Positions 24,971 through 53,659 of a DNA stretch of 64,000 nucleotides are shown one piece after another. Position numbers and translations under genes: made by a program. Under the pieces are notes generated by a model that was not told the DNA's origin, did no database searches, and worked only from the letters and a program-made list of their open reading frames with translations. Origin of the DNA: an uncultured Candidatus Thioglobus sp. (lineage in GTDB: Bacteria; Pseudomonadota; Gammaproteobacteria; PS1; Pseudothioglobaceae). The stretch is from contig CAJQTG010000001.1 in assembly GCA_905618925.1 (NCBI GenBank), forward strand, positions 1 to 64,000, read 5' to 3'. Every line of letters starts with the position of its first letter. Within the stretch, counting starts at the first letter, position 1.

Positions 24971-25621
24971 ATGGCTTCAATTAAAAATAGTACGCAAAAA
25001 GAGCAAAGCGTATCCATAGTAAATAAAAATCTCCCCAGTTTTGGCACTGATAAACAGCTAGAAGCGTCGATTGGAAAGCAGGTTAGAATCTCTAGAAAAA
25101 GTGCTGGCGTTACTTTGCAACAACTCTCAAAGCAGTCGCTATTATCTGCAAGTATGCTTTCAAAAATTGAGAATGGTCAAATTAGTGCCTCCTTAAAAAC
25201 AATTCAACTAATCTGCCACGCACTTAATATTTCAATTACGTCATTATTCAAGCAACACGATAAAGACGTAGAGCCAACCTTTATTAAATCAGGCAATGGT
25301 TTGACTATCGAGAGAGCGGGATCGGATGAAAGTAGGCATTATCAATTACTTGGCCATAACGTAAGTGGGTCTCTTAAGGTAGAGCCTTGCCTTATTACGG
25401 TAACTTCAAGAGATTATGATTTTCCTGACTTTCAGCATAAAGGGGTAGAGTTTATTTATATGCTTAAAGGTGAAATGGATTATTACTATGGAACTGAGAT
25501 CTATCACTTTCAGAAGGGCGACTCTATATACTTTGATTCAGATAAACCTCACGGACCTAAAAAAATAATTAGTGATGAGTGTCAGTTTCTAACCGTTATC
25601 TGTTCAAATAATTCTGATTAG
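24971..25621 (+). CDS. XRE-family regulator with C-terminal cupin
   Basis: 216 residues. A helix-turn-helix lies at about 36-92 (IGKQVRISRKSAGVTLQQLSK...LSASMLSKIENGQISASLKTI) and a sensory cupin at about 140-210 (FQHKGVEFIYMLKGEMDYYYG, FQKGDSIYFDSDKPHGPK). XRE-cupin proteins usually sense a small metabolite and control an adjacent catabolic or transport operon. Facing gmaS-mgs from 381 bp upstream, it is the best candidate regulator for methylamine assimilation. Ligand and DNA site are unknown. Confidence 0.88.
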   Translation: MASIKNSTQKEQSVSIVNKNLPSFGTDKQLEASIGKQVRISRKSAGVTLQQLSKQSLLSASMLSKIENGQISASLKTIQLICHALNISITSLFKQHDKDVEPTFIKSGNGLTIERAGSDESRHYQLLGHNVSGSLKVEPCLITVTSRDYDFPDFQHKGVEFIYMLKGEMDYYYGTEIYHFQKGDSIYFDSDKPHGPKKIISDECQFLTVICSNNSD

Positions 25622-26002: not shown

Positions 26003-27478
26003 ATGACAGATCTAGAACAGCACGTTAACGAGCCCGGTCGCGACAAACTTGTAAAAGAAGTTAAGGCTAAGATCGAAGCATTGGGCGTTACATATGTATA
26101 TTATCAATTTGTTTCAGTTACTGGCCGCATTGTAGGAAAAGGTATTCCTGCGCGCCATTGGGAAAGGTTAGCTGAAAAAGGATTTCAACTAGTATATGGC
26201 TCAACAGCCAACTTATTCGTAGACCGTCATGGTGATTATATTGGTTATGGCCCTGAAGCTTCAGAGCTTGTAGGTCTTCCAGATCCTGACACTTTTTGTC
26301 AGCTTCCATGGGACAAGAGAGTAGCGCGCGTTTTCTGTAGACTTTATAGAAACCGTGAAGAGCGTGAAAATCCAGGTGAAGCCCTTACGTCAGATTGTCG
26401 TGGTAACTTATATAGACAACACAAAGAATTTCAAGATCAGTATGGATTAGATATGCGCTGTGGCACAGAGCCAGAGATGATGTGGCTTAAGCGTGGTGAA
26501 GATGGTAAGCCAAATGGTGGAGTAACAAAGCCTAACTGTTACCACATTGATCAGTTTGAAGAGTTACGTCCTGTGTTTATGAAAGTTATTGAATATTCAG
26601 AGCAAATGGGTCTTGATATTATTCAAGGTGACCACGAAGATGCGCCGGGTCAATTAGAACTTAATACACAATTTGATGACGTATTAAGAAATGCTGACCG
26701 CTTGACGACTTATCGTCAAATTTGTGCCCAAGTTGCTCGTGAGTTTGGATTAATTGCTTGCTTCATGAGTAAACCTTTTATGGGAGTATCTGCATCAGGT
26801 TGTCACCATAATATGTCTTTATGGAAAGGCGGTAAAGATGTATTCCATCCAGAAATTGCTGGCGAAGGAGAGCTTCCTGGTATGCCTGGTAACTTTATGT
26901 ATAAAGAGGGTGGTGAAAATACATTTATGCCTGACCCTTCAATCGATGAAAAGATGCCTGGTCCAATTGGCCTTCAGTCAATCGGTGGTGTTATTAAGCA
27001 TTTACCAGCATTAACTTCAATTGGTTCTTCTACAGTTAACTCTTATCGCCGTCTTTGGGATACTGGTTTTTGGGCACCAATCTTTGCAGATTGGGGTTAT
27101 CAAAACCGTACTTGTGCGCTTCGTGTTTCTGCGCCAGGTCGTTTTGAATATCGTTCAGTTGACTCAATGGTTAATCCTTACTTAATGGGATCAGCACTAT
27201 TAAAGGCAATGGGTGATGGTATTGATAATAATCTTGATGCAGGTGAGCCTGAAGAGCGCAATATCTATGCAGCGATGGAGGCAGGAAAGCAGGTTAAGAA
27301 GCTTCCTATGTCTCTAGGTGATGCATTGAATGAGCTTGAGAATGATGAAGTAATTAAATCATCGATGCCAAATGAAATGTATAAAGTTTTTCATCATTAT
27401 AAGACAGATGAATGGGAAAAATTTAATGCCACAGTTACAGATTGGGATTTAGAGACTTATATAGATTGCTTGCCGTAG
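26003..27478 (+). CDS. gmaS: Gamma-glutamylmethylamide synthetase (glutamine synthetase-like)
   Basis: ATP-dependent ligase of the glutamine synthetase fold that joins glutamate and methylamine to gamma-glutamylmethylamide. 491 residues. Conserved GS parts are visible: GTEPEMMW (metal-binding Glu), GDHEDAPGQLELN (the GMAS/GS-III form of this motif), SGCHHNMSLW and SYRRL. It is placed directly before mgsABC, the classical gene set of the N-methylglutamate pathway, which is the main reason to prefer methylamine over ammonia. A GlnT-type type III glutamine synthetase is the alternative. A strong promoter and long leader precede it; a partial terminator follows. Confidence 0.8.
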   Translation: MTDLEQHVNEPGRDKLVKEVKAKIEALGVTYVYYQFVSVTGRIVGKGIPARHWERLAEKGFQLVYGSTANLFVDRHGDYIGYGPEASELVGLPDPDTFCQLPWDKRVARVFCRLYRNREERENPGEALTSDCRGNLYRQHKEFQDQYGLDMRCGTEPEMMWLKRGEDGKPNGGVTKPNCYHIDQFEELRPVFMKVIEYSEQMGLDIIQGDHEDAPGQLELNTQFDDVLRNADRLTTYRQICAQVAREFGLIACFMSKPFMGVSASGCHHNMSLWKGGKDVFHPEIAGEGELPGMPGNFMYKEGGENTFMPDPSIDEKMPGPIGLQSIGGVIKHLPALTSIGSSTVNSYRRLWDTGFWAPIFADWGYQNRTCALRVSAPGRFEYRSVDSMVNPYLMGSALLKAMGDGIDNNLDAGEPEERNIYAAMEAGKQVKKLPMSLGDALNELENDEVIKSSMPNEMYKVFHHYKTDEWEKFNATVTDWDLETYIDCLP

Positions 27479-27508: not shown

Positions 27509-27534
27509 TGCCCACTTAACGGTGGGCAATTTTT
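27509..27534 (+). terminator. Intrinsic terminator between gmaS and mgsA
   Basis: TGCCCAC (27509-27515), loop TTAACG, GTGGGCA (27522-27528), then ATTTTT. It lies inside what otherwise looks like one operon, so it probably sets gmaS expression above mgsABC rather than ending all transcripts. Confidence 0.75.
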
Positions 27535-27555: not shown

Positions 27556-28494
27556 ATGTGCGGAATAGCAGGAATTATTCATAAAAAAGCTGGAAAAGGC
27601 GTAAACATTGGTCAGCAAATGACATCAATGCTTCAGGCTTTAAAGCATAGAGGTCCAGACTCAACTGGATATGCAATGTATGGTAAAGACAATGGAAATC
27701 AAATATTAAGATTTAAAGTTGCTGAAGCCGCTGACCTAGAAGGTAGTTATGATATTCATGCTACTATCAAAGATCGTATGGAAACAGTGAATTCAAGACT
27801 TACTGAGTTAGGTGTTAAGGTTGTAAAGAAAGAAAGCCCAACTGAATACGCCCATCGTTATGAAGTTCAATTTTCAGGTGATATGAAAAAAGTTGCCGAC
27901 TTTGTTGAAGATGTTGAAGGTGTTGAGATTTTATCTATTGGTAACTCACTAGAGTTAGTTAAAGATTTGGGAGACGCATCAGTTGTTTCTGATCAATATG
28001 GCTTAAATGACTTTAATGGTACTCACGGAATTGGACATACCAGAATGGCAACAGAGTCTGACGTTGATATTCGCTCTGCCCATCCTTACTGGGCTTATCC
28101 TTTTAGTGACGTTGCAGTTGTTCATAACGGACAGTTGACAAACTACTGGACAAATAGACGCTCACTTGAGCGCTCTGGCCATCGTTTTTCATCTAACTGT
28201 GACTCAGAACTAATTGCTGTTTATCTTGCTGATAGAATGAGTCAAGGTGACGATTTAGAAACTGCTATGAAGGGTTCAATAGACTACCTTGATGGTGTTT
28301 TCACGTATTTGGTTGCAACAAAAGATCAACTTGGTATGGCCAAGGATGTTATGGCTGCTAAACCAATGGTTGTATACGAAGGCGAAGATATGATTGCGCT
28401 AGCTTCTGAAGAGGTAGCAATTAGAACTTTATTTGATCATCGTATTGAAACATTTGACCCATATCACGGAGAGGTAAAAGTATGGCAGAACTAA
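27556..28494 (+). CDS. mgsA: N-methylglutamate synthase subunit A (class II amidotransferase domain)
   Basis: 312 residues, related to the amidotransferase part of glutamate synthase. It begins MCGIAG, so Cys2 becomes the N-terminal nucleophile. RGPDSTGYAMYG, GIGHTRMATES and SAHPYWAYPFSDVAVVHNGQLTNY match the class II fold. With MgsB and MgsC it makes N-methylglutamate from gamma-glutamylmethylamide and 2-oxoglutarate; subunit A releases the methylamine. Homologous GlxB of rhizobia is the alternative name. It overlaps mgsB by 13 bases in another frame, so the subunits are translationally linked. Confidence 0.85.
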   Translation: MCGIAGIIHKKAGKGVNIGQQMTSMLQALKHRGPDSTGYAMYGKDNGNQILRFKVAEAADLEGSYDIHATIKDRMETVNSRLTELGVKVVKKESPTEYAHRYEVQFSGDMKKVADFVEDVEGVEILSIGNSLELVKDLGDASVVSDQYGLNDFNGTHGIGHTRMATESDVDIRSAHPYWAYPFSDVAVVHNGQLTNYWTNRRSLERSGHRFSSNCDSELIAVYLADRMSQGDDLETAMKGSIDYLDGVFTYLVATKDQLGMAKDVMAAKPMVVYEGEDMIALASEEVAIRTLFDHRIETFDPYHGEVKVWQN

Positions 28495-29324
28495 GGAAGG
28501 AAACGTCCCAAGAGATGGGACTTCACGAAGAAACGTTAAAAGGAAGAACTCAGAAAAAATTCTTCTCTATTGACGAAAGTGAAAATTTAACATATTTCCA
28601 CTCATTTGATGTTGACACTAGTAAGAGTGCAACGATTGATGCGCTTGACATGACGCCAAGAGAAATTAATCGTGAAATCAGAGAGTTAATGGAAAAAGGT
28701 ATTGGTGATATTACTGTTGATAATCCTATGTCTAGGCATGGTGTTGGTGTTGGTATCTTAAATAGACTTAACTTAACTTTCTCGGATAGCTTGGGTTATT
28801 TTGGTTGTGGCTTAATTGATGGACCTAATGTTCATATTAAAGGTCGTGTCGGTTGGTCATGTGCAGAAAATATGATGGCTGGAACTGTTGTTATTGATAA
28901 AAATGCTGGGTCTACTTTTGGCGCTGCTATTCGTGGTGGTGATCTTGTCTGTAAAGGCAGTGTTGGTGCACGAACTGGTATTGATCAGAAGGGTGGCACA
29001 ATTATTGTTGGCGGCAAGACAGGCGCATTTTCTGGATTCATGATGCAGCGTGGACGCATGATTGTTTTGGGTGATGCTGGAATGAATTTAGGTGACTCAA
29101 TGTATGACGGTACTATCTATGTCGGTGGTGAAGTTGAAGAACTAGGTGTTGACTGCGTGCAAGCTGATATGACAGAACTTGATGTTCGTTACTTAACAGA
29201 GAAATTAGCCCTTTATGGTATGAAGACTCCTAGAGGCGTTGAGAAAATGCAAAAGCATATTTCTGGAAAAATGTTATGGAACTACGCTAACTTAGAGCCT
29301 AATGAGAAAAAACTAATTCTTTAA
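28482..29324 (+). CDS. mgsB: N-methylglutamate synthase subunit B (GXGXG domain)
   Basis: 280 residues matching the C-terminal GXGXG beta-helix of glutamate synthase as a free subunit. Repeated short glycine units are seen from about residue 120: LGYFGCGLIDG, GTVVIDKNAGSTFGAAIRGGDL, KGGTIIVGGKTGAFSGFMMQRGRMIVLGD, DGTIYVGGEV. The helix is thought to be structural and to hold subunits together. The N-terminal 40 residues (KETSQEMGLHEETLKGRT) are extra and charged. It sits between mgsA (overlap) and mgsC (36 nt gap). Confidence 0.85.
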   Translation: MAELRKETSQEMGLHEETLKGRTQKKFFSIDESENLTYFHSFDVDTSKSATIDALDMTPREINREIRELMEKGIGDITVDNPMSRHGVGVGILNRLNLTFSDSLGYFGCGLIDGPNVHIKGRVGWSCAENMMAGTVVIDKNAGSTFGAAIRGGDLVCKGSVGARTGIDQKGGTIIVGGKTGAFSGFMMQRGRMIVLGDAGMNLGDSMYDGTIYVGGEVEELGVDCVQADMTELDVRYLTEKLALYGMKTPRGVEKMQKHISGKMLWNYANLEPNEKKLIL

Positions 29325-29359: not shown

Positions 29360-30694
29360 ATGAGTGATTCAGAAAACCATAGACTAGGTAAAAGTTTTAT
29401 CTTCCCTAAAACAGTGATGGATGATATCCATATTAAGTCTGATTTGGGTAGATACAGAATGAGAGGGTTCTCTTTATTTAAAAAAATTCCAACATGGGAT
29501 GATTTAACTTTTATGCCAGGAACGTTAACTCGTTTTGTCATTGAAGGTTACAGAGAAAAATGTTTAACTAAAACAATTATTGGGCCAGAGGCTCCTAGAC
29601 CATTAGAGCTAGATATTCCAATTTATATTACTGGAATGAGTTTTGGTGCATTGAGTTATGAGGCTAAAACGGCTTTAGCTCGCGGCGCTACGATGGCTGG
29701 AACTGCTACTTGTTCTGGTGAAGGCGGAATGATTCCAGATGAGAGGCGTTATTCAAGTAAGTGGTTTTATCAGTGCATCCAGTCTCGTTATGGCTTTAAT
29801 CCTCAACATTTACGTTTAGCTGATAGTGTTGAGTTTTTTATTGGTCAAGGTTGTAAGGTTGGTTTAGGTGGACACCTAATGGGTCAAAAAGTTACAGACC
29901 AGGTTGCTGAAATGCGTTCTTTGCCTGCTGGTATTGATCAGCGCTCTCCTGCGAGACATCCAGACTGGCTTGGGCCAGATGACTTGGCACTTAAAATTGA
30001 AGAAATTCGTGAAGCGACAGATGGTCAGATTCCTATTCAACTGAAACTTGGTGCTGCACGTGTATACGATGACGTTCGTATGGCTGCTAAAACTGGTTGT
30101 GATAGTATTTATATTGATGGTATGGAAGGTGGGACTGCTGCTGGACCACATATTGCAACAGAAGAAACTGGAGTTCCAGGAATTGCGGCAATTCGTCAAG
30201 CTCGCAGAGCAATTGATGATGTTGGTATGAGCGGAAGAATTTCTTTAGTTTATGCGGGTGGTATTAGAAATGGTGGTGACGTTGCTAAAGCTGTTGCACT
30301 TGGTGCTGATGCAGTTGCGATTGGTCACTCATCTCTTATGGCGCTTAACTGTAATAGAGACATTCCTGAGGCTGATTATGAAGCAGAAATGGGCGTTAAA
30401 GCCGGTGAATGTTATCACTGTCATACTGGACGTTGTCCGGTTGGTGTTGCAACTCAAGATCCTGAGCTTAGAAAGCGTCTTGATCCTGATGAAGCATCAG
30501 AGCGTGTATACAACTTCTTACATACGCTAGCAATCGAAACTCAAATGATGGCTCGTGCATGTGGTAAGACAAATATACACTCATTAGAGCCAGAAGATCT
30601 AGCTGCTCTTACTATGGAAGCTTCAGCTTGTGCACAAGTTCCTATTGCAGGTTCACAGCACACGGTTGGTCGTCCTGATATGACACGTTTTTAA
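29360..30694 (+). CDS. mgsC: N-methylglutamate synthase subunit C (FMN glutamate-synthase domain)
   Basis: 444-residue catalytic subunit with the FMN/Fe-S barrel of glutamate synthase. ITGMSFGALSYEAKTALARGA, SGEGGM, IQLKLGAARVYDDVRMAAKTGCDSIYIDGMEGGTAAGP and the C-terminal CHTGRCPVGVATQDPELRKRL are typical. The last block holds cysteines for the iron-sulfur cluster (CYHCHTGRCPVG). It would add the methylamine released by MgsA to 2-oxoglutarate and reduce the imine. AAAAGGA precedes the ATG. An unknown 128-residue gene follows after 15 nt. Confidence 0.87.
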   Translation: MSDSENHRLGKSFIFPKTVMDDIHIKSDLGRYRMRGFSLFKKIPTWDDLTFMPGTLTRFVIEGYREKCLTKTIIGPEAPRPLELDIPIYITGMSFGALSYEAKTALARGATMAGTATCSGEGGMIPDERRYSSKWFYQCIQSRYGFNPQHLRLADSVEFFIGQGCKVGLGGHLMGQKVTDQVAEMRSLPAGIDQRSPARHPDWLGPDDLALKIEEIREATDGQIPIQLKLGAARVYDDVRMAAKTGCDSIYIDGMEGGTAAGPHIATEETGVPGIAAIRQARRAIDDVGMSGRISLVYAGGIRNGGDVAKAVALGADAVAIGHSSLMALNCNRDIPEADYEAEMGVKAGECYHCHTGRCPVGVATQDPELRKRLDPDEASERVYNFLHTLAIETQMMARACGKTNIHSLEPEDLAALTMEASACAQVPIAGSQHTVGRPDMTRF

Positions 30695-30709: not shown

Positions 30710-31096
30710 ATGAGTAAAAATGATGAAACATTTGTAGTTGGCGCTGATGGCTTAGATACTGATCGTGAGCAAATGATTGGACAACATATTGGTTATAGAT
30801 ATGATGTAAACCTTGTTCCTGATCTTAAGTTCATAACGCCTTTTTTACAAAAATATATTGAAAAAATGGGTTGGAAAGATCTTAACTGGTTAGAAGATAT
30901 TCATATGGGTTATGAGGGCGATCAAGCTGCTGTTTTTGATAGGAATATTAATGGCTGGGTCACTATTCCAGATAATATAAAACTTCCTGATAATCAACAA
31001 GAGCGAGATATGATTGCTCGTGAATTATTAGTTAAGTTTCAAATGTCAGAAAACCATCCAATGGTCGATCTTAATAATGCTTACCGTAAATTCTAA
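30710..31096 (+). CDS. Unknown 128-residue protein in the mgs operon
   Basis: I do not recognise this protein. It lies 15 nt behind mgsC, has AAGGAG before its ATG, and ends just before a strong hairpin, so it is the last gene of the gmaS-mgsABC unit. It is soluble and acidic with many aromatic residues: IGQHIGYRYDVNLVPDLKFITPFLQKYIEKMGWKDLNW when read through, then an HMGYEGDQAAVFD block and a C-terminal helix. No cysteine and no metal motif is seen. A helper or small subunit of the GmaS/Mgs enzymes, or a part of the missing dimethylamine step, are both only possibilities. Confidence 0.75.
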   Translation: MSKNDETFVVGADGLDTDREQMIGQHIGYRYDVNLVPDLKFITPFLQKYIEKMGWKDLNWLEDIHMGYEGDQAAVFDRNINGWVTIPDNIKLPDNQQERDMIARELLVKFQMSENHPMVDLNNAYRKF

Positions 31097-31163
31097 CTAC
31101 TGTAAGTGATTTAAAAAGGTGTTGGATTAGAGTAAAAACTCTACATCTTTACTCCTTAGTTTG

Positions 31164-31190
31164 TCGGCATTCCACCCCCTGGAATGCCGA
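31164..31190 (+). terminator. Strong hairpin after the mgs operon
   Basis: TCGGCATTCCA (31164-31174), loop CCCCC, TGGAATGCCGA (31180-31190): 11 perfect pairs. No T-run follows, so it may act as an RNA 3' end stabiliser or bidirectional barrier as well as, or instead of, an intrinsic terminator. Confidence 0.6.
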
Positions 31191-31246
31191 ATAAACTATT
31201 TATTCTTAAATTCTAATTTATTTCATCAGCACATGAATTTTTCAAA

Positions 31247-31302: not shown

Positions 31303-33603
31303 ATGAGAGTTTCTAATATTAAATATAACGGTGATTGTGAAACCTACCAAATACTTGGAGGTGAGGCAATTTCAATTGATTTAAAGAGTGGTGATTCAGT
31401 AGAAATAGTCGATGTAGAGGGTGATCAGCAATGCAGTGTTCTTGCTTTTGACTCTAAGAAATTATCAGTGTTGTCAGCATTGAACTGGAATACAAAACCT
31501 AAAAGCAATACATCTGAAATAAATACAGATGATTGTTCAGATATGCTCAAGGCAATTCTAGAGCATAACCAAATAGACTCCAAAAAACTAAATGGCACTG
31601 AGCTTTTCTCATCCTCTAATCCGGCAGATTCACGCCAGTCTTTTGATATTAAAAATGATACCTTATGCGTTTTTGATGCAAAAGGTGGCCCAATGATAGT
31701 AAATCAACAGAATTCTCCCACTGAAATTTTGATTAATGTATCACGCTTAAATCCATCAAACCCTTCTGAGAGACTACCTGAACCCCTAGCTAAAACATCT
31801 AAAGAGATTCGAATTAGCAATAGCTCTGCAGTTGCCTATAAAGTAAAGGCCGGCGAGTATATTCAAATTATTGATGTTGAAGGTCAGCAATGTTCTGATT
31901 TTCAAGCTTTCTTAGAAGAAGATTTAAAAAATAATTTAGAGTTGTGCCTCGATCCAACGGTTACAAGATCACAAATGCAGGCAAGCTATCCAGCACCAGG
32001 CACTCATGATAAGTTCTACAACCAAAACTCAGCACCACTTGTTGAGGTCATTCAAGACACCGTATGTAGGCATGACACCTTTGGTCTTGCATGTAATTCC
32101 AAGTATTATGACGATAGAGGATTTCCTGGGCATATTAGTTGTACTGATAATTTTAATAAATCCCTTTCTAAACATGGAGTTACGCCAAGACAAAATTGGG
32201 CGGCAGTTAACCTCTTTTTTAATACTGCAATTGAAGAATGTCATACATTAAGCTCAGATGTTTCCTGGTCTAGGCCTGGTGACTATGTCTTATTTAGAGC
32301 TATTGATGATCTAGTATGTGTTTCATCAGCTTGTCCGGATGACACAACTTCTGCTAATGGCTGGAATCCAACAGATATTCACGTTAGAATTTACAATAAA
32401 TCCAATAATTTCTCATCGGCTACGGCTTTTAGGCCTGATCCACAATCAATACCTACTATGACTAAAGAAACTGGTTTTCATAAAAATACCTCTAAGCTAA
32501 CTAAAAACTTTGATAACTATAATGGTTATTGGTTGCCACTTGAGTACACTAATTTAGGTGCAATTAAAGAGTATTGGCAGTGCCGTGAAGGCGTAGCAAT
32601 GATTGATCTTGCTCCTCTTAGAAAGTTTGAAGTTTACGGTCAGGATGCTGAAGCATTAATGCAGTTCGCTATTACGAAAGATGTTCGAAAGCTTGCTATT
32701 GGCCAGGTTGTCTATTCTGCCATGTGCTATGACAATGGCTGTATGGTTGATGATGGCACTCTTTTTCGTCTTGATGAAAATAATTTTAGATGGATTGGTG
32801 GATCAGATGATGGTGGAAAACTACTTAGAAAAATTGCAGATGAAAAAGGTTTTGATGTGCGCGTTAAATCATCAACAGATCAGCTTCATAATGTGGCTGT
32901 TCAGGGACCAAAGAGTCGCGAAACTTTAGAGAAAATTATTTGGACTCCAAAACTACAAACTAGTCTTGAAGATCTCAAATGGTTCCGTTTTACTATTGGC
33001 CGAATTGGCGGTGAGTTCGGAATTCCTGTTATGGTTTCTAGAACTGGTTACTCGGGAGAGCTTGGGTATGAAGTTTTTGCCCACCCAAAAGATTGCGAGT
33101 CTGTTTGGGATTCAATTGCAGAGGCTGGAGAAGAATTTGGCATATGCCCTTTAGGATTAAATGCTCTAGATATGCTAAGAATAGAGGCAGGATTAATTTT
33201 TGCAGGCTATGAATTTTGTGATCAAACTGACCCATTTGAGGCAGGCATTGCGTTTACGGTTCCACTGAAAACAAAAGAGGAAGATTTTTCCGGAAAAGAA
33301 GCATTAATTCTTCGTAAGAATTCTCCACAAAGAGTTCTTGTTGGGTTAGAATTAACTTCAAATGAGGTTGCACTCCATGGCGATGGGGTGTATATTGGAA
33401 AGCAACAGGTTGGAGTAGTAACAAGTGCAACACGCTCTCCAATATTAAAAAAGAATATTGCACTTTGTAGAATTTCAGTATCAGAGTCAGAAATTGGTAA
33501 TGATGTTGAAGTAGGAAAATTAGATGGACACCAAAAGCGCCTTTCAGCAAAAATTGTTCGCTTTCCGTTTTATGATCCTGAAAAGACTCGAGTAAGAATG
33601 TAG
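31303..33603 (+). CDS. tdm: Trimethylamine N-oxide demethylase (DUF1989-GcvT fusion)
   Basis: 766-residue fusion. Residues about 170-375 are a DUF1989 metal-binding domain (GEYIQIIDVEGQQCSDFQAF, then CRHDTFGLAC at 255-264, Cys280, and LVCVSSACPDDTTSANGWNPTDI with Cys339 and Cys344). Residues about 405-760 are a GcvT-type tetrahydrofolate-binding aminomethyltransferase (YSAMCYDNGCMVDDGT, SRTGYSGELGYEVF, ALDMLRIEAGL). This architecture is that of TMAO demethylase, which forms dimethylamine and formaldehyde and passes the latter to THF. Residues 1-165 look like a second, degenerate DUF1989 copy (GDSVEIVDVEGDQQCSVLAF). It stands directly before a TMAO-type ABC importer, which supports the call. 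Confidence 0.82.
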   Translation: MRVSNIKYNGDCETYQILGGEAISIDLKSGDSVEIVDVEGDQQCSVLAFDSKKLSVLSALNWNTKPKSNTSEINTDDCSDMLKAILEHNQIDSKKLNGTELFSSSNPADSRQSFDIKNDTLCVFDAKGGPMIVNQQNSPTEILINVSRLNPSNPSERLPEPLAKTSKEIRISNSSAVAYKVKAGEYIQIIDVEGQQCSDFQAFLEEDLKNNLELCLDPTVTRSQMQASYPAPGTHDKFYNQNSAPLVEVIQDTVCRHDTFGLACNSKYYDDRGFPGHISCTDNFNKSLSKHGVTPRQNWAAVNLFFNTAIEECHTLSSDVSWSRPGDYVLFRAIDDLVCVSSACPDDTTSANGWNPTDIHVRIYNKSNNFSSATAFRPDPQSIPTMTKETGFHKNTSKLTKNFDNYNGYWLPLEYTNLGAIKEYWQCREGVAMIDLAPLRKFEVYGQDAEALMQFAITKDVRKLAIGQVVYSAMCYDNGCMVDDGTLFRLDENNFRWIGGSDDGGKLLRKIADEKGFDVRVKSSTDQLHNVAVQGPKSRETLEKIIWTPKLQTSLEDLKWFRFTIGRIGGEFGIPVMVSRTGYSGELGYEVFAHPKDCESVWDSIAEAGEEFGICPLGLNALDMLRIEAGLIFAGYEFCDQTDPFEAGIAFTVPLKTKEEDFSGKEALILRKNSPQRVLVGLELTSNEVALHGDGVYIGKQQVGVVTSATRSPILKKNIALCRISVSESEIGNDVEVGKLDGHQKRLSAKIVRFPFYDPEKTRVRM

Positions 33604-33767: not shown

Positions 33768-34724
33768 ATGAATAAGTTTACAAGTAAGGTGGCTGCTGCT
33801 GCTTTAGCGATGTCTTTAGCTTCTGTTTCAGGTCAAGCGCTTGCGGCAGACTCTTCAAAGCCAATCGTTATACCAATTCACAACTGGTCAAGCCAAGTGG
33901 TTATGTCCTACGTTATTGGTGGTATTTTTGAGTCTATGGGTAACAACGTATCTTACGTTCCTGCTGACTCGTCAGGTGTATATGAATCGGTTCGTCTTGG
34001 AGACGTTACTATATCTCACGAAGTTTGGGAAGGAGCCTTTGGCAACGCTTACTATACAGCCATGCAGAAGGGCGGTCTAATAGAAGCTGGTACCCATTCT
34101 GCCTTGACTATTGAAGATATGGGCGTTCCTAACTTCGTAATAGAGAAAAATCTATGTCCTGGACTTCCAAATTGGGAAGCTCTTAAAGGTTGTGGATCAG
34201 TTTTTGCCACTGCCGATTCTGGTGGTAAAGGTGTTTTCTTAGACGGTCCTTGGCACGTTGATGCTGCAACCGGAAAGAATCTATTTGAAGATCGTATTGG
34301 AGCTCTTGGTTTAGATGATGAATACACTTATAAACAAACTGGTAGTGCAGACGCCCTTTGGGCCGCTATTGATTCTGCAGAAGCTGCTGGAGAAGGTGTA
34401 ATTATATTTAACTGGACACCTAACTTTACGGATAGTGATGGTTTTTACTTCATAGAGTTTCCTCCATACTTCAAGGGTTGCCGTGAAACAGAAGGTGGTG
34501 ACGGGGCTTGTGGTTCTCCTAGAGGCTGGTTGAAGAAAGCGGCGAACTATAAGTTCCCTAAGACTCATCCAAGTGCGTATACAGCCTACACTAAGATGGA
34601 CTTCTCGACTGGAATGATCGGTCAGATGGCTGCTCTAGTTGATATTGATAAGATGTCTCATGAAGATGCTGCAGCTAAGTGGCTTGCAGATAACGCGGAT
34701 GTTTGGGCGGCTTTCACAAAGTAA
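33768..34724 (+). CDS. tmoX: TMAO/betaine ABC transporter, periplasmic binding protein
   Basis: 318 residues with a clear signal peptide (MNKFTSKVAAAALAMSLASV, cleavage after ALA, about residue 27). It belongs to the glycine betaine/proline (OpuAC) binding fold. Four tryptophans sit at loop positions: Trp40 (HNW), Trp87 (EVW), Trp162 (GPW) and Trp216 (FNW), fitting an aromatic box for a quaternary or N-oxide head group as in TmoX. Location between tdm and the two other transporter genes favours TMAO; glycine betaine or choline remain possible. AAAAGGAG precedes the ATG. A GC-rich hairpin after it separates it from the ATPase gene. Confidence 0.8.
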   Translation: MNKFTSKVAAAALAMSLASVSGQALAADSSKPIVIPIHNWSSQVVMSYVIGGIFESMGNNVSYVPADSSGVYESVRLGDVTISHEVWEGAFGNAYYTAMQKGGLIEAGTHSALTIEDMGVPNFVIEKNLCPGLPNWEALKGCGSVFATADSGGKGVFLDGPWHVDAATGKNLFEDRIGALGLDDEYTYKQTGSADALWAAIDSAEAAGEGVIIFNWTPNFTDSDGFYFIEFPPYFKGCRETEGGDGACGSPRGWLKKAANYKFPKTHPSAYTAYTKMDFSTGMIGQMAALVDIDKMSHEDAAAKWLADNADVWAAFTK

Positions 34725-34775
34725 CCCTTTAATCTAGAGCACTCTTTATTCAAATAGAATAAAGGATGTTTGTCA

Positions 34776-34825
34776 AATACCCTTGCCCCCTCAATTAATA
34801 ATAAGGGGGGGTAGGGGTATTTTTA
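34776..34825 (+). terminator. GC-rich hairpin between tmoX and tmoW
   Basis: AAATACCC...CCCCCT (from 34776) pairs with AGGGGG...GGGGTATTT (to about 34823), with one internal mismatch region, and is followed by T-rich sequence. It likely terminates part of the transcripts so that the binding protein is made in excess of the membrane parts. Confidence 0.7.
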
Positions 34826-34873
34826 TATATACTTGTAGTGTTTTATTTGTTTCAAAGAATTTAGGAAGATATT

Positions 34874-35923
34874 ATGTCTGATCAGCAACCTGTAATTAAA
34901 TGCGATTCTGTTTATAAAATATTTGGCAAAAATGCCGAAAAAATGCTTCAAAATGCAAATGGCAAGGTTGTTGCTGAAGAATTTCAAAAAGCTGGCTGTG
35001 TAGTCGGAGTTAATAATGCCTCTTTCGAGGTTAATAAGGGTGAGATGCTTGTGGTTATGGGTCTTTCAGGCTCGGGCAAGTCGACCTTGCTTCGTTGTAT
35101 TTCAAGACTAACCGATGCCACTGCAGGGAATATTTATATTGAGGGCGAGGACTTATTGGCTTTAAACAGTAAAGAGCTTATCGAGCTTAGACGAAACAAA
35201 ATGGGTATGGTATTCCAGAGTTTCGCATTACTTCCACATAAAACGGTTTTAGAGAATATAGCGTTTCCTTTACAGGTTAAAGGTAGTAGTACAAAAGATA
35301 GTATTTCAAGAGCCATGGAGATGGTTGACCTTGTTGGTCTTACAGGCCGTGAAAACTACTTTCCTAGAGAGCTCTCAGGTGGTCAGCAGCAACGAGTTGG
35401 AATCGCACGCTCTCTAGCTGTTGAACCCGATATTTGGTTCTTGGATGAGCCTTTTTCGGCGCTAGATCCGCTAATTCGTAAAGAGATGCAGGATGAATTC
35501 TTGCGTCTTCAAGCAGTATTGAACAAAACTATTTTGTTTGTTACTCATGATTTTGATGAAGCCATTCGGCTTGCTGATCGTGTGGCTATTATGAAAGATG
35601 GCATTATCGAGCAATTGGATACACCAGCCAATATTGTCCTTAACCCTGCCACCGAATACGTGCGCAAGTTTACAGAGGATGTTCCAAGGGAGAAGGTTCT
35701 TAAAATTAAATCAGTGATGGAGCCTGTTGGCGATGAAACAGACTTTAGTGATTTAAGGGTCTCCGAAGATGCCCTTATTGAAACTGTTGCCGAAGCTGTG
35801 CTCGGCGACCCTAAATCAGTTCCCGTACTCAATGCAAATGATGATATTGTTGGTGTTGTACATTCATCTAAAGTAATTCATGTGTTATTTGGTGAAAATT
35901 CAACACTAGAAAGCAACGCTTAA
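34874..35923 (+). CDS. tmoW: TMAO/betaine ABC transporter, ATP-binding protein
   Basis: 349-residue ProV/OpuAA-type ATPase. Walker [12 protein letters not shown], the ABC signature [14 protein letters not shown], Walker B IWFLDEP and the H-loop FVTHDFDEA are all visible. The C-terminal 80 residues ([43 protein letters not shown]) form a CBS-like regulatory segment. An insertion [18 protein letters not shown] near the N-terminus is typical of osmoprotectant importers. The gene letter follows TmoXVW usage recalled from Ruegeria and could be swapped with the permease. Confidence 0.8.
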
Positions 35924-35933
35924 GGCTAGCACC

Positions 35934-38378
35934 ATGAGCTTTATCAATTATTTATCTGAACGCCCTAAACTGACGCAATTGGGCATTGTCCTCATTGTGT
36001 TTTTTATTCTCATGTCAATGACAGGTCAGTACCATGATTTGATAGTAGAGCGTCATTTATTTGCCAAGTCTGTTGTTAAGGGAGAAATACAATCTTCGGC
36101 TGGTTTTGCTGAATCCATGTCAATGATTCTGAATTGGCAACTTCCTCCTCAACTCGTTAGAATTCCTGAGCTGACTTTTTATCACCCTGTCATTAACACT
36201 TCCGCCACCTATGTTCTAATAGCTTTATTGGTAACTGCTGGGCTCTTATACAAAAGCTTTGCAGAGAGTGTCAATAAATCACAGTGGTTAAGTGTCAATT
36301 GGTTTCAAATTATTAGCAAGGGCTTTGTTGGCATTATTGTGGGTCTTCTGTTTATACCTACTTTGTATAACTGGTTTTTTGGTGAGGTGACAAGCAGTAC
36401 GTTTTGGGAAATACCAACAATGTTGGAAAATTTTTCTCAGTACCTCATGTTTGAATTTTGGTTGACACCAGTTTACGACCCAGAAATTGATGACTATGAA
36501 GACTATGGTCGAGTTCGATTATTTACCCGAGCTATTGGCGCCTCTTTATTGTTTTTAATTACTTTAATTCGGGAATTATTGATTGGTGGTTTTGAGACAG
36601 TCGTTTCACTTGCCAATGTTTTTAGTGATCAATCCGGCTGGGATTGGCTCGGTGAAAATAAGGATAAGTGGTACTCCAGTATCCCTGCTATTCCTTGGAC
36701 AGTATTAACTGCCGGTGCTTTTATTTTGGGTTATAAACTTAAAGGTGTGGGTCTTTCTATATTGGCTGGTTTTAGTTGTATTTACTTGGCTGTATTCGGC
36801 CAATGGGAACCCGCAATGGAGACACTCTCTTTGGTGTTGGTTGCTGCGCCGGTCTCTGTTTTATTAGGTGTTATCTGGGGTGTGCTTGCCTACAAGAGTA
36901 GAACGGTTGAGAGAGTAATAACGCCATTGCTCCTCGTTGCACAAACGATGCCACATTTCTCGTATTTGATACCAGTACTTGTGTTCTTTGGTATTGGTGA
37001 CCATGCGGGTGCGATTGCAACAATAATTTTTGCAACACCTCCGATGATTCGACTCACCTTGCTAGGTCTCAAAAGAGTCTCTCCAGAGGTTTTAGATGCA
37101 GGCATGATGAGTGGTTGCCATAATTATCAACTGATGTTTAAAGTTTTGATACCTACTGCAAGGCGCGACATTTTAATTGGCGTCAACCAGGTAATTATGC
37201 AGTGCTTGGCTATGGTGGTGATTGCTTCTTTTATTGGAGCTAAGGGCCTGGGTTTTAACTTATTACTCGCTCTAAACCAACTAAGGGTAGGTCAAGCGCT
37301 AGAATTAGGAGTATGTATTGTCCTGATTGCTGTAGTGTTAGATAAATTATCTTTAGCTTGGGCCAATAAGCAAACCGACTACTTTGCCGACCTTTCTTTT
37401 GTTGAGAGAAATAAAACAGCTCTTTTGTTTGTTGCAGTTTTCTTTGCCGCTCTTTTGTTTGCTTGGTTTGGTAACTGGATGTTTGCTGATACTGCAAAAG
37501 GTATTAACTATTTTTACACGATACCCCACAACAAAGGTATTACCACTGAGCCATTTTGGCAGGCAGGCGTTGACTTCATGGTTTCAACTTGGAGAGCGGA
37601 TATTAAAATATTTAACAAGTGGTTACTGGTGGAAGTGTTGATGCCAATGAAAGCGTCTTATCTGGCCATGCCAGCAATAGCAACTTTTGTTCTAACAATG
37701 GGTGTTGGTTACATTATCGGTGGCATTCGTTCTGCGATTGTCATTGGTTTGTTTATGTTGTTTATTGCTCTAACACCCTGGTGGGAAAGAGCCTTGATAA
37801 CTATGTATATGCTGACGTTTGCAGTCATTGTTTCTGTTGTTATTGGTACGATTGTTGGTGCAATCTGTGTGCAAAATAAGAGGGCAACCAAATTCATTCT
37901 TTTAGTTTGTGACACTTTTCAAACTTTTCCGTCGTTCATTTATCTTATTCCGGTGATTATGCTCTTTGGTGTGACTGACACTTCAGTGTTAATTGCGGTC
38001 ATTGTCTACGCTGTTATTCCGCCTACTCGCTACACCGTAGAAGGCCTGAGAAATGTACCGGAATCTTTGCTTGAAGCGGGGGATATGTCGGGCGCAACAA
38101 AACTTCAGCGTCTGGTTAAAATCGAGTTCCCATTAGCTTTCCCACATATTATGCTGGGCGTCAATCAGTGCGTTGTTTTTTCATTGTTTATGATTATTAT
38201 AGGTGCGTTTATTGGTACTACAGGTTTAGGCCAAGAAATAATGCAACAACTTTTTTCTGGAGGCAATATTGGAAGTGGTCTAATTCTTGGTTTATGCGTG
38301 GCGTTTATCGGTCTTGCAGTGGATCATTTAATCCAGACCTGGGCAACTAAGAGAAGAAAGTTACTAGGAATTGACTAG
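35934..38378 (+). CDS. tmoV: TMAO/betaine ABC transporter, double-domain permease
   Basis: 814-residue inner-membrane protein with two ProW-type permease domains in one chain. The EAA loops are visible in both: AGMMSGCHNYQLMFKVLIPTARRDILIG in the first (about 395-420) and AGDMSGATKLQRLVKIEFPLAFPHIMLG in the second (about 715-745). A soluble or membrane-peripheral stretch (residues about 165-250) and an N-terminal span precede the first domain. Such a fused permease replaces the usual homodimer and is known from TMAO/betaine importers of marine bacteria. It starts 10 nt after the ATPase gene. Confidence 0.82.
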   Translation: MSFINYLSERPKLTQLGIVLIVFFILMSMTGQYHDLIVERHLFAKSVVKGEIQSSAGFAESMSMILNWQLPPQLVRIPELTFYHPVINTSATYVLIALLVTAGLLYKSFAESVNKSQWLSVNWFQIISKGFVGIIVGLLFIPTLYNWFFGEVTSSTFWEIPTMLENFSQYLMFEFWLTPVYDPEIDDYEDYGRVRLFTRAIGASLLFLITLIRELLIGGFETVVSLANVFSDQSGWDWLGENKDKWYSSIPAIPWTVLTAGAFILGYKLKGVGLSILAGFSCIYLAVFGQWEPAMETLSLVLVAAPVSVLLGVIWGVLAYKSRTVERVITPLLLVAQTMPHFSYLIPVLVFFGIGDHAGAIATIIFATPPMIRLTLLGLKRVSPEVLDAGMMSGCHNYQLMFKVLIPTARRDILIGVNQVIMQCLAMVVIASFIGAKGLGFNLLLALNQLRVGQALELGVCIVLIAVVLDKLSLAWANKQTDYFADLSFVERNKTALLFVAVFFAALLFAWFGNWMFADTAKGINYFYTIPHNKGITTEPFWQAGVDFMVSTWRADIKIFNKWLLVEVLMPMKASYLAMPAIATFVLTMGVGYIIGGIRSAIVIGLFMLFIALTPWWERALITMYMLTFAVIVSVVIGTIVGAICVQNKRATKFILLVCDTFQTFPSFIYLIPVIMLFGVTDTSVLIAVIVYAVIPPTRYTVEGLRNVPESLLEAGDMSGATKLQRLVKIEFPLAFPHIMLGVNQCVVFSLFMIIIGAFIGTTGLGQEIMQQLFSGGNIGSGLILGLCVAFIGLAVDHLIQTWATKRRKLLGID

Positions 38379-42009: not shown

Positions 42010-43356
42010 ATGTCTTTACCAAGTCAAGCCGAATATGTTATTGCTGGTGCAGGAATTCATGGATTATCAACTGCATGGAGATTAGCTGAGCGACTAACTG
42101 CAGATGGAAAGGGTGTTAATGGTCGTATTGTCATAATAGATAAAGCAAACAGAATTGCAGCTGGAGCGACTGGAATTGCTTGTGGTGTTGTTCGCAATAA
42201 TTATTTTCAACCTGCTATGAGAAAGTTGATGGCTCATTCAGTTAGTATTTGGGAAAGTGATCCAGATGCTTTTAGTTATCATCCAAACGGATACATGCAA
42301 ATTTCATGCGAAAAAATGCGTGAAGATGTTAAGCAAATCCATGCTGAACAAGCTGCAATTGGCTATGAAAGTGTATTTATTGAAGGTGAAGAAGAGTCGC
42401 GTGACTACATGCTAAGTATGTTTGATGATTGGCAAGCGCAAGGAATTACATCAGTTCTTCATGAAAAGCCTGGTGGCTATGCTAATAATGTTAAAGCAAT
42501 GGAAGGCCTTTCTAAAAAAGTATTAGATTTAGGCGTTACTGTAGTTCTTGAAACTGAGATAACAGGTTTTGTTTCTGAAGGTAATGGTCAAAGAGTTACT
42601 GCGGTTGAGACAGATAAAGGAACGATTGCATGTGACAACCTAATTATTGGAGCGGGACCTTGGGTGCGTGATTTTTGGAATATGCTTGGTCTACCATCTC
42701 AAATTGAATTAAAGGATCTTGAAGGCGAGGTTCATCAAGATATAGATATGTGGCGTTTTTGGCAGCTAGAAGAAGGTGTTTTAGAAATCGATCCTGAAAC
42801 TTTAGTAACCAATGATGGTAAGATTCCGCCAGTTCTTCATATAGATACTGATGCGCCTTTGTACTCAACTGTCGATGGCTCACTTATTACTGATGAACTA
42901 TGGGGAATATATTATAAGCCTGATTGGAGCTTTGGTGGTATCCAAGGCGGCGCTTCACCTTATACAGTTGATACACCTGTAAATGAAGTTGCTATTGATC
43001 CATATGGCCCTGAAAGTAAAGAATTTACAGCGAGTAAAGATTTTCCTGAAATGTGGGTTTCTGCTCTTGCGCATTGTCATAAAAGATTTGAAGGGATGAT
43101 GCCTTATTATCATAAAGAGCCATCGGGCGGTATTGGCTGCTTTACTCCAGACAGCTTTCCTGTTATTGATACTTATAATGAAAATGTAACAATCATTGCA
43201 GATAGTAATCATGGATATAAAATGTTAGGAGTTGGCTGTCTAGTGGCTGAAGAGTTATTAGGTGAAAAACAGGAACTCTTAGAGCCATTTAGATTTAGCC
43301 GCTTTAAAGCGGGCAAGTTACATCCAGTTTCTAATAGTCCTTATCCTTGGAGCTAA
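42010..43356 (+). CDS. DAO-family FAD-dependent oxidoreductase
   Basis: 448 residues. FAD-binding YVIAGAGIHGLSTAWRLAERL is at residues 9-29 and IIGAGPWVRD lies mid-protein. The C-terminal TPDSFPVIDTYN...DSNHGYKMLGVG is the usual closing FAD contact of this family. It resembles the flavin subunits of sarcosine, dimethylglycine and N-methyl amino acid oxidases, but differs clearly from the MgdA/SoxB gene that follows. The operon order (this gene, then mgdABCD, 3 nt gap) suggests it supplies or shares a substrate. Oxidation of dimethylglycine or another secondary or tertiary N-methyl compound is plausible; the substrate is not shown by sequence. Confidence 0.8.
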   Translation: MSLPSQAEYVIAGAGIHGLSTAWRLAERLTADGKGVNGRIVIIDKANRIAAGATGIACGVVRNNYFQPAMRKLMAHSVSIWESDPDAFSYHPNGYMQISCEKMREDVKQIHAEQAAIGYESVFIEGEEESRDYMLSMFDDWQAQGITSVLHEKPGGYANNVKAMEGLSKKVLDLGVTVVLETEITGFVSEGNGQRVTAVETDKGTIACDNLIIGAGPWVRDFWNMLGLPSQIELKDLEGEVHQDIDMWRFWQLEEGVLEIDPETLVTNDGKIPPVLHIDTDAPLYSTVDGSLITDELWGIYYKPDWSFGGIQGGASPYTVDTPVNEVAIDPYGPESKEFTASKDFPEMWVSALAHCHKRFEGMMPYYHKEPSGGIGCFTPDSFPVIDTYNENVTIIADSNHGYKMLGVGCLVAEELLGEKQELLEPFRFSRFKAGKLHPVSNSPYPWS

Positions 43357-43359
43357 ATA

Positions 43360-44622
43360 GTGAGTAAAACACGTTATTCTGGTTTTAAGGTATTCAAAGA
43401 AGCACTAACTGGTCATAAAGGCTGGGAGCCAACTTGGCGTGATGCTGAGCCAAAAGCTGATGGCTATGATGTTGTCATTGTTGGTGGTGGTGGTCATGGT
43501 CTAGCGACTGCTTACTACTTAGCAAAAAATCATGGTATTACAAATGTAGCTGTTGTTGAAAAAGGCTGGATAGGTGGTGGTAATGTGGGTAGAAATACGA
43601 CCATTATAAGATCAAATTATTTGCTGCCTGGTAACGAGCCTTTTTACGAATTTTCAATGAAGCTTTGGGAGAATCTTGAGCAAGATTTAAACTATAACGC
43701 CATGGTTTCTCAGCGTGGTATTATGAATCTAATTCATTCTGATGCCCAGCGTGATGCATTTATTCGAAGAGGTAATGGTATGTTATTCGCTGATGCGGGC
43801 TGCGAATTCATAGAAGCAAAAGAAGTAAAAGAAAGGTATCCATTTTTAGATATGGATAACCCAAGATTTCCAATTAAAGCAGCCTTAGCGCAGCCTCGTG
43901 GAGGCACTGTCCGTCATGATGCTGTAGCTTGGGGATACGCAAGAGGCGCTAGTGATCTTGGAGTTGATATTATTCAAAATTGTGAAGTTACAGGTTTCAA
44001 TATTGAAAATGGTAAATGTTTAGGTGTTCAAACAACTAAGGGTGAAATTAAAGCTGGAAGAGTTGGTGTTTGCGTTGCAGGCTCATCTGGAAGAGTTATG
44101 GCGAAAGCTGGAATTAAACTACCTATTGAAAGTCATGTTCTTCAAGCTTTTGTAACTGAAGGCCTTAAACCAGTAATGGATAATGTAATTACTTTTGGAG
44201 CTGGACATTTTTACTGTTCTCAATCTGACAAAGGTGGCCTTGTATTTGGTGGTGATATTGATGGTTATAACACATATGCTCAACGAGGAAATTTACCCGT
44301 TGTAGAAGATGTTTGCTCAGGTGGTATGGCTATTATGCCAATGATTGGCCGAGCTAGATTACTTAGAATGTGGGGAGGAGTTATGGACATGTCAATGGAT
44401 GGCTCTCCGTTTATAGATAGTACTGAAATTGATGAATTATTTTTTAATGGTGGTTGGTGTTATGGCGGCTTTAAGGCAACGCCTGCTAGTGGATATTGTT
44501 ATGCTCACTTGCTTGCAACAAACTCTCCACACGAAGTAGCAACAGCATATAAGCTTGATCGATTTAGGCGTGGCGCAATGATTGATGAGAAAGGTGTTGG
44601 CGCTCAACCAAATCTGCATTAG
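43360..44622 (+). CDS. mgdA: N-methylglutamate dehydrogenase / sarcosine oxidase, beta-like subunit
   Basis: 420 residues from a GTG start. FAD-binding DVVIVGGGGHGLATAYYLAKNHG is near residue 37-60. GGNVGRNTTIIRSNYL is the SoxB hallmark. His186 in GGTVRHDAVAWGYARGA sits where heterotetrameric sarcosine oxidase attaches FMN covalently. The flavoprotein oxidises the N-methyl group of a secondary amino acid. With gmaS and mgsABC in the same island, N-methylglutamate is the preferred substrate; sarcosine from betaine breakdown is the alternative. The order soxB-D-A-G equals mgdA-B-C-D. Confidence 0.8.
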   Translation: MSKTRYSGFKVFKEALTGHKGWEPTWRDAEPKADGYDVVIVGGGGHGLATAYYLAKNHGITNVAVVEKGWIGGGNVGRNTTIIRSNYLLPGNEPFYEFSMKLWENLEQDLNYNAMVSQRGIMNLIHSDAQRDAFIRRGNGMLFADAGCEFIEAKEVKERYPFLDMDNPRFPIKAALAQPRGGTVRHDAVAWGYARGASDLGVDIIQNCEVTGFNIENGKCLGVQTTKGEIKAGRVGVCVAGSSGRVMAKAGIKLPIESHVLQAFVTEGLKPVMDNVITFGAGHFYCSQSDKGGLVFGGDIDGYNTYAQRGNLPVVEDVCSGGMAIMPMIGRARLLRMWGGVMDMSMDGSPFIDSTEIDELFFNGGWCYGGFKATPASGYCYAHLLATNSPHEVATAYKLDRFRRGAMIDEKGVGAQPNLH

Positions 44623-44633
44623 GAAGACATAAT

Positions 44634-44924
44634 ATGATAATAAATCATCCATTACTTGGTCCTCGTGATTCTGAAGAATTTGTTTACTTAGGTTCAGCTG
44701 ATCTTATAAAGCGCCCCAATAATTGGGAGGAAGATGCATCCGCTGAAGACTTTTATCAATACCAATATATTAGAGAAAATATTGCTGGTGATCATCGTGA
44801 GCTTTGGTACCATGAGCAGGGCGATCAGTCTTGGCTAGTTGTTACTAGAAATACTTTATCGCATGAAATTCTTAATGTTGAGTTAGCTCAAGATGTCTCA
44901 AGAGAAATAGGTAGAGGAAAATGA
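44634..44924 (+). CDS. mgdB: N-methylglutamate dehydrogenase / sarcosine oxidase, delta-like subunit
   Basis: 96 residues. LGPRDSEEFVYLGSADLIKRP and YQYQYIRENIAGDHRELWYHEQGDQSWLVVTRNT match the delta subunit. Classical delta subunits bind zinc through a CxxC-type pair near the start and a His plus Cys about 60 residues in. Here the N-terminus reads MIINHPLLGPRD; the protein has no cysteine at all, and the second-site Cys is Asp64 next to His60. Zinc binding in the known manner is therefore excluded. ATGA overlap with the next gene. Confidence 0.8.
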   Translation: MIINHPLLGPRDSEEFVYLGSADLIKRPNNWEEDASAEDFYQYQYIRENIAGDHRELWYHEQGDQSWLVVTRNTLSHEILNVELAQDVSREIGRGK

Positions 44925-47869: not shown

Positions 47870-48431
47870 TTATGAATTAGTAGTAGAATCCGCACTTGAT
47901 GGTGTTGAGCATGAGTTTGAGGGAGTAACTGTCTCAGAAGTTATTGGCAAGTCATTAGTTATGGTTGCATTGCCAAGGTCAAAATTTGAAGAAATTGAGT
48001 CATCAATGACAAAGTCTTGTGGCTTATTGTTACCTGAAATGGAGCAGTCAACTCAATCTAAAGATTCAGCTATAACGCTTTGGCGTTTACAGAAAAATCA
48101 AGTTCTAGCATATTTTTCTTATGAAGGGAATGATGCAGAAGTAAATATTGCAAATAGATTAAATGCTCCTGCTTACTATACTGATCAATCTGATACATGG
48201 GCGATGATTAGAGTTAGTGGCCCTAGAAGTAGAGATGTTCTTGAGCGAATTTGCCCAATCGATCTAAGTAAAAATGTGTTTTCTGTTGGCAGTGTATCAA
48301 GAACAATAATGGAACACATTGGTACAATTATCTATAGAGATGGGGAAAATTCATATGTGTTGCTTACAATGCGATCTTTTGGTGTCTCTATGCTTCATGC
48401 TATAGAAGTATCAGTTAAGAATGTTTTGTAA
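47862..48431 (+). CDS. mgdD: N-methylglutamate dehydrogenase / sarcosine oxidase, gamma-like subunit
   Basis: 189 residues from a GTG start that overlaps the end of mgdC by 8 bases. It resembles SoxG (ITLWRLQKNQVLAYF, TDQSDTWAMIRVSGPRSRDVLERICPIDL, IMEHIGTIIYRDGENSYVLLTMRSFGVSM), a folate-binding-like domain without catalytic residues that holds the complex together. Last gene of the plus-strand operon, convergent with hutC. Confidence 0.85.
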   Translation: MSDYELVVESALDGVEHEFEGVTVSEVIGKSLVMVALPRSKFEEIESSMTKSCGLLLPEMEQSTQSKDSAITLWRLQKNQVLAYFSYEGNDAEVNIANRLNAPAYYTDQSDTWAMIRVSGPRSRDVLERICPIDLSKNVFSVGSVSRTIMEHIGTIIYRDGENSYVLLTMRSFGVSMLHAIEVSVKNVL

Positions 48432-49190: not shown

Positions 49191-49227
49191 ATTTCTATTA
49201 TACGCAACTCTTAAAAAATTGATTGTC

Positions 49228-49249
49228 TATACTTGTATATACAAGTATA
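49228..49249. promoter_or_regulatory. HutC operator, 22 bp perfect palindrome
   Basis: The half-site TATACTTGTAT and its exact complement form a 22 bp palindrome centred at 49238/49239. Its core, CTTGTATATACAAG, is close to the CTTGT...ACAAG sites bound by HutC repressors of enteric bacteria and pseudomonads (recalled). It lies between hutC and hutU, near where both promoters must be, so one repressor can silence both. Confidence 0.8.
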
Positions 49250-49285
49250 CTTTTGTTTATAGATAATTCAATAATAGGCACAATA

Positions 49286-50929: not shown

Positions 50930-50933
50930 AAAA

Positions 50934-53638: not shown

Positions 53639-53659
53639 TACCAATAAAAGGATTTTTAG

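Follow-up and report, generated by a model that had tools for sequence, protein, structure and literature searches.

On the forward strand of the 64,000-nucleotide stretch of DNA analysed here (the window), an operon whose genes resemble gmaS and mgsABC ends in an open reading frame for a 128-residue protein, to which we give the working name X128. The kind of operon found in the window, accompanied by X128, will be called type A, and the kind that has been characterised genetically will be called type B (PMC6237917; PMC5023235). The features of the locus are as follows.

24971..25621, + strand: regulator with HTH and cupin parts, 5' of gmaS (so assigned by reading the sequence)
26003..27478, + strand: gmaS-like ligase of the glutamine synthetase family, type A, with the GmaS amine-pocket residues kept
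27556..28494, + strand: mgsA-like class-II glutamine amidotransferase subunit, type A, with Cys2 kept
28482..29324, + strand: mgsB-like GXGXG subunit, type A
29360..30694, + strand: mgsC-like FMN / Fe-S synthase subunit, type A, with a Glu_synthase domain and the motif CYHCHTGRC
30710..31096, + strand: X128, ORF from ATG to TAA, 128 aa, conserved and linked to mgsC; proposed MgsC-bound accessory subunit
about 31157-31198, + strand: hairpin 3' of X128, -24.2 kcal/mol, z -9.4, with 0 of 200 shuffles as stable
31303..33603, + strand: TMAO demethylase Tdm (DUF1989-GcvT), dimethylamine-making; 1112 bits to NF053776, cut-off 1100
33768..38378, + strand: ABC importer, with ORFs for a binding protein (33768), an ATPase (34874) and a permease (35934)
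42010..43356, + strand: FAD-dependent dehydrogenase of the DAO type, conserved with type A; candidate N,N-dimethylglutamate dehydrogenase
43360..48431, + strand: soxB (43360), soxA (44921) and a soxG-like gene (47862), for an MgdABCD-like N-methylglutamate / sarcosine dehydrogenase

The names TmoX/W/V for the importer are inferred from the SAR11 context (PMC8918994), and the interval between soxB and soxA leaves a gap of the size of soxD. A terminator-like hairpin with a T-run lies between gmaS and mgsA (27509-27528) and possibly sets differing transcript levels within the operon. Genes for a glycine-betaine-monooxygenase-like Rieske protein (39339-40499) and a betaine-homocysteine methyltransferase (23861-24877) flank the TMAO cluster, and hut genes lie beyond it (49223-55027).

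The start codon of X128 follows the mgsC stop, which ends at 30694, by 15 nt and is preceded by AAGGAG; the hairpin downstream, which has no clear T-tract, is likely to mark a transcript end or a processing site. The spacing, ribosome binding site and hairpin described in the original prediction are thus all present in the sequence. X128 occurs as a single copy in the genome to which the window belongs (1.25 Mb, about 70% complete), and the closest relatives are SUP05 / Candidatus Thioglobus genomes. When X128 was compared with six relatives, the differences at codon positions 1/2/3 ranged from 3/2/32 to 13/8/61; because they concentrate at third positions, the reading frame is real and under selection at the protein level. 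The protein had been described as matching no family, and this was borne out: X128 has zero matches in Pfam and NCBIfam even at an E-value of 1, and a scan of 52 homologues against Pfam returned one stray family only, in 2 members and with a best E-value of 0.15. X128 is a member of a new protein family.

One scan of 84,980 species genomes gave 150 homologues; 80 were retained for analysis, and identity within this set goes down to about 68%. In 79 of the 80 loci kept, X128 lies directly behind an mgsC-like gene on the same strand, and the remaining one starts at a contig edge. Moreover, the mgsC-X128 pair and gmaS-mgsAB stand on different contigs in three Gemmatimonadota genomes, and the adjacency and these separated pairs together indicate that X128 tracks MgsC. 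In another Gemmatimonadota genome a permease gene is inserted between mgsC and X128 in an otherwise intact operon. The original prediction, which had staked itself on homologues keeping company with mgs genes and had raised the question of whether X128 always follows mgsC, therefore withstands the neighbourhood survey. Across 52 sequences, 60 of the 128 positions are invariant, and these sequences span SAR11, Gammaproteobacteria, Rhodospirillaceae, Acidobacteriota and Gemmatimonadota. That X128 is a spurious or decaying frame carried along by the operon has for these reasons next to no probability: missing annotation and nothing further speaks for it, and the codon-position bias, together with so many invariant residues over several phyla, already refutes it. 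Three further observations may be noted, the latter two read from the sequence. Lysine-rich N-terminal tails, missing in the other taxa seen, occur on both MgsC-A and X128 in a SAR11 locus (L156, 10303-12147), and the two proteins look as if they had changed together in SAR11. An acyl-CoA-dehydrogenase-like gene directly follows X128 in two Gemmatimonadota loci (L096, 8425-9819; L163, 90-1517), and a flavin monooxygenase resembling trimethylamine monooxygenase follows it in a locus of Arenicellales (L055, 8681-10021).

Structural comparison bears on what X128 might do. Single-sequence and profile searches of the PDB returned only a chance-level match to an apicomplexan protein, and comparison of a model of 75 pLDDT with the PDB by Foldseek and VIA-align gave a best E-value of 0.42 and a best Z of 2.3, which should not be taken as evidence of a new fold. 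Residues 24-34 are highly conserved and lack order when X128 is modelled alone, which an interface might well show; the stretch would suit a protein that binds a partner more than the core of an enzyme. MgsC and X128 were also modelled jointly by reading through the mgsC stop, as both genes are in frame; this model reached a pLDDT of 48.6 and says nothing on the interface. X128 alone is unlikely to be an electron or Fe-S carrier, having no conserved cysteine. We hold with high confidence that X128 belongs functionally to type A, and lean towards its being an MgsC-bound subunit; the genetic linkage is strong. Some of the evidence would also suit a separate small enzyme or chaperone on the pathway, concerned for example with amide release, imine handling or Fe-S / FMN loading, and no subunit at all: many of the invariant residues are charged or aromatic, His65 and His116 among them, and could form an active site, and a permease gene can come between mgsC and X128. 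We regard this as improbable, given that X128 has neither a fold nor a family match and that the conserved stretch 24-34 is unstructured in the lone model.

The partners of X128 differ from the classical enzyme. The window operon joins the GATase, GXGXG and FMN glutamate-synthase-domain subunits as classical MgsABC does, yet its MgsC falls outside the clade of the studied enzymes of the Paracoccus aminophilus type and keeps Fe-S cysteines, unlike sequences of the studied type. Among 398 genomes sampled from the phylum, MgsC relatives of at least 87% identity occur in two, exactly the two with X128, whereas a large set near 51% identity, to which the plasmid operons of Paracoccus aminophilus and Methylobacterium sp. 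DM1 belong, never occurs with it. The idea that X128 is an unnoticed subunit of the classical enzyme was overturned by this clade and these plasmid operons; indeed, among the records searched, type-B operons are never accompanied by X128. In the MgsC tree, types A and B, which share about 51% identity, are split by a branch with full support (100/100). Where glutamate synthase has its Fe-S ligands, the listed MgsC variants of type A carry C-x2-C-x4-C (CYHCHTGRC), and typical type-B sequences read YDDWHEG.DPAG, the cysteines being lost. The ligases diverge further still, GmaS-A sharing 27-30% identity with type-B GmaS in the loci compared and falling below the TIGR03105 cut-off. With reference to the amine pocket of the solved GmaS (PMC7948447), all 68 of 68 GmaS-A sequences keep Tyr147, Gln175, Asp177, Glu179, Glu186 and Asn188, have lost the ammonia-binding Asp50 of GS and carry Trp at the Glu304 position.

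Both kinds can occur in one genome. That of the window also has a type-B mgsABC-gmaS operon (L142, 6888-11150, on contig C12 of G000), G101 likewise carries one (L144), and in some SAR11 genomes, L156 being an example, the A operon and the B operon follow one another, separated by an ammonium transporter. A further GS-like gene lies just upstream of the type-B operon in L142 (5348-6766). Judged by its sequences, the window operon represents a new form of the machinery for N-methylglutamate, in a clade separate from classical gmaS-mgsABC. The original prediction that X128 is built into a gmaS-mgsABC operon accordingly stands as regards conservation and operon membership, but the operon is not the standard N-methylglutamate one. 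Co-production with N-methylglutamate synthase does not stand, as the classical operon is elsewhere in the genome and differs in MgsC cysteines, GmaS and partners; X128 is predicted instead to be made with a paralogous GmaS/Mgs system whose putative substrate is possibly dimethylamine. A third kind of mgsABC adjoins sox genes in two Gemmatimonadota loci (L154, 5796-8896; L155, 16282-19001), with X128 not beside it; its MgsC is 56-57% identical to type A and 55% to type B, and has the Fe-S motif.

Gene content was compared between 47 type-A genomes and 33 type-B-only genomes, which differ in lineage and size, so that the association tests rest on non-independent samples. The DAO-type FAD dehydrogenase occurs in 43 of the 47 type-A genomes against 2 of the 33 type-B-only ones; in dozens of loci gmaS-A comes immediately after it, and none of the type-B loci examined has it. 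Sox/mgd genes follow X128 in nine loci, and two demethylating enzymes would fit the two methyl groups of dimethylamine. Conversely, DmmA (PF11927) is present in 3/47 type-A genomes, two of them having type A plus a clear DmmA, and in 27/33 type-B-only genomes; it was not found in the window's genome (G000, 70% complete) or, likewise, in 44 of the 47 type-A genomes. Because tdm alone (35/47 against 17/33, about a quarter of type-A genomes being without it) fails to separate the two groups, it is informative only in combination with DmmA: among tdm-positive genomes, DmmA occurs in all 17 of the type-B-only set but in 3 of the 35 with type A, the other 32 having none. In a sample of 198 genomes of the SAR11 order, picked regardless of X128, both tdm and X128 are present in 103, just one of them in 9 and neither in 86, and the two genes lie 6.1-6.6 kb apart in seven of ten examples checked. 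Three SAR11 genomes have a type-B gmaS nearby and no type-B MgsC was seen in them; in L098 (10318-11643), for instance, none was found in the genome, and in such genomes MgsABC-A may serve both amides, and so methylamine as well.

These associations bear on a gap. The genes dmmDABC are missing from SAR11 and other abundant marine bacteria, which has been termed a bottleneck affecting the release of amines to the atmosphere, and tmm/tdm sequences related to Candidatus Thioglobus singularis have been described (PMC5520151). The SAR11 strain HTCC1062 has no dmmDABC and nevertheless grows with TMAO as its only source of nitrogen, for which the authors suggest an unknown isoenzyme (PMC8918994). Its published locus tags include 1302 (tmoX-type binding protein), 1303 (aminomethyltransferase), 1304 (sarcosine-oxidase-like), 1305 (glnT), 1309 (hypothetical), 1310 (amt) and 1313-1316 (glxBCD-glnT) (PMC3160333; PMC5069961; PMC2704228). 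Since the order of 1302-1310, compared via these tags, agrees with that of the type-A genes in L156, SAR11_1309 is very probably X128.

What the sequence shows directly is which genes are present, how they are linked, that the Fe-S cysteines and the GmaS pocket are kept, and that DmmA is nearly excluded; from here we infer the substrate of type A, the intermediates, the direction of electron flow and the binding of X128 to MgsC. In the proposed pathway, Tdm would convert TMAO to dimethylamine and formaldehyde, and GmaS-A would join dimethylamine to glutamate as gamma-glutamyl-dimethylamide. MgsABC-A with X128 would then free the amine from the amide and condense it reductively with 2-oxoglutarate on FMN, giving N,N-dimethylglutamate, with electrons entering via the Fe-S cluster of MgsC in the manner of glutamate synthase. 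The FAD dehydrogenase would remove one methyl group to leave N-methylglutamate, and MgdABCD the second, returning glutamate. X128 would most likely be attached to MgsC and there influence how the complex is shaped, how electrons enter or how a secondary amine is accepted. We see an even chance that type A serves the use of TMAO and dimethylamine, and judge equally balanced the proposal that a type-A GmaS/MgsABC acts on dimethylamine in place of DmmABC and has in X128 a small subunit of its own. The broader claim, that SAR11, SUP05 and other abundant marine bacteria possess an undescribed glutamate-carrier pathway for dimethylamine with an Fe-S synthase needing X128 (probably SAR11_1309), is put forward tentatively, at somewhat below even confidence.

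Several observations pull against dimethylamine. The pocket of GmaS-A holds every known methylamine-binding residue, so that methylamine may itself be the substrate; about a quarter of type-A genomes are without tdm, and two have a clear DmmA; and the third kind of MgsC has the Fe-S motif with X128 not adjoining. The main rival explanation is that type A handles monomethylamine, as an alternative N-methylglutamate system in which an Fe-S isoenzyme has X128 as accessory subunit; it would be employed at low methylamine or in nitrogen assimilation and have no role in dimethylamine use. The unchanged pocket residues, the lack of a visible type-B MgsC in some SAR11 genomes and the oxidation of methylamine by HTCC1062 are consistent with such a system. 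Many streamlined genomes nonetheless keep both types, HTCC1062 has a classical candidate in SAR11_1313-1316, and a methylamine isoenzyme would leave unexplained both the near-exclusion of DmmA among tdm-positive genomes and the extra FAD dehydrogenase; we consider it unlikely, if by no means negligible. The operon adds an undescribed protein family, present in roughly half of the SAR11-order genomes sampled, and marine 'gmaS' and 'mgs' matches may mix two differing systems. An operon that tracks tdm and is rarely found together with DmmA makes the missing dimethylamine step directly testable.

Among the closest known systems is classical gmaS-mgsABC (Paracoccus aminophilus pAMI6, Methylobacterium DM4/DM1, Methyloversatilis FAM5), with which type A shares the GS-like ligase, class-II GATase, GXGXG and FMN synthase-domain subunits, the GmaS pocket residues and an Mgd-type dehydrogenase nearby. 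It departs from the classical system in its 27-53% identity and separate MgsC clade (the FAM5 and DM4 sequences lying outside this comparison), and in possessing the MgsC Fe-S cysteines, X128 and the extra FAD dehydrogenase. MgsC-A also aligns to the FMN domain of the NADPH- or ferredoxin-dependent glutamate synthase GltB, and the alignment takes in CPVGVATQ and the final two of the Fe-S cysteines; unlike GltB, type A has its domains split into subunits, no central domain and a Cx2Cx4C spacing, and no GltD-like beta subunit was noted in its cluster. With the dimethylamine monooxygenase DmmDABC, type A would share the step after Tdm, the two being nearly mutually exclusive in tdm-positive genomes, yet DmmDABC is an oxygenase built of unrelated proteins, and the proposed glutamate route would bypass free methylamine.
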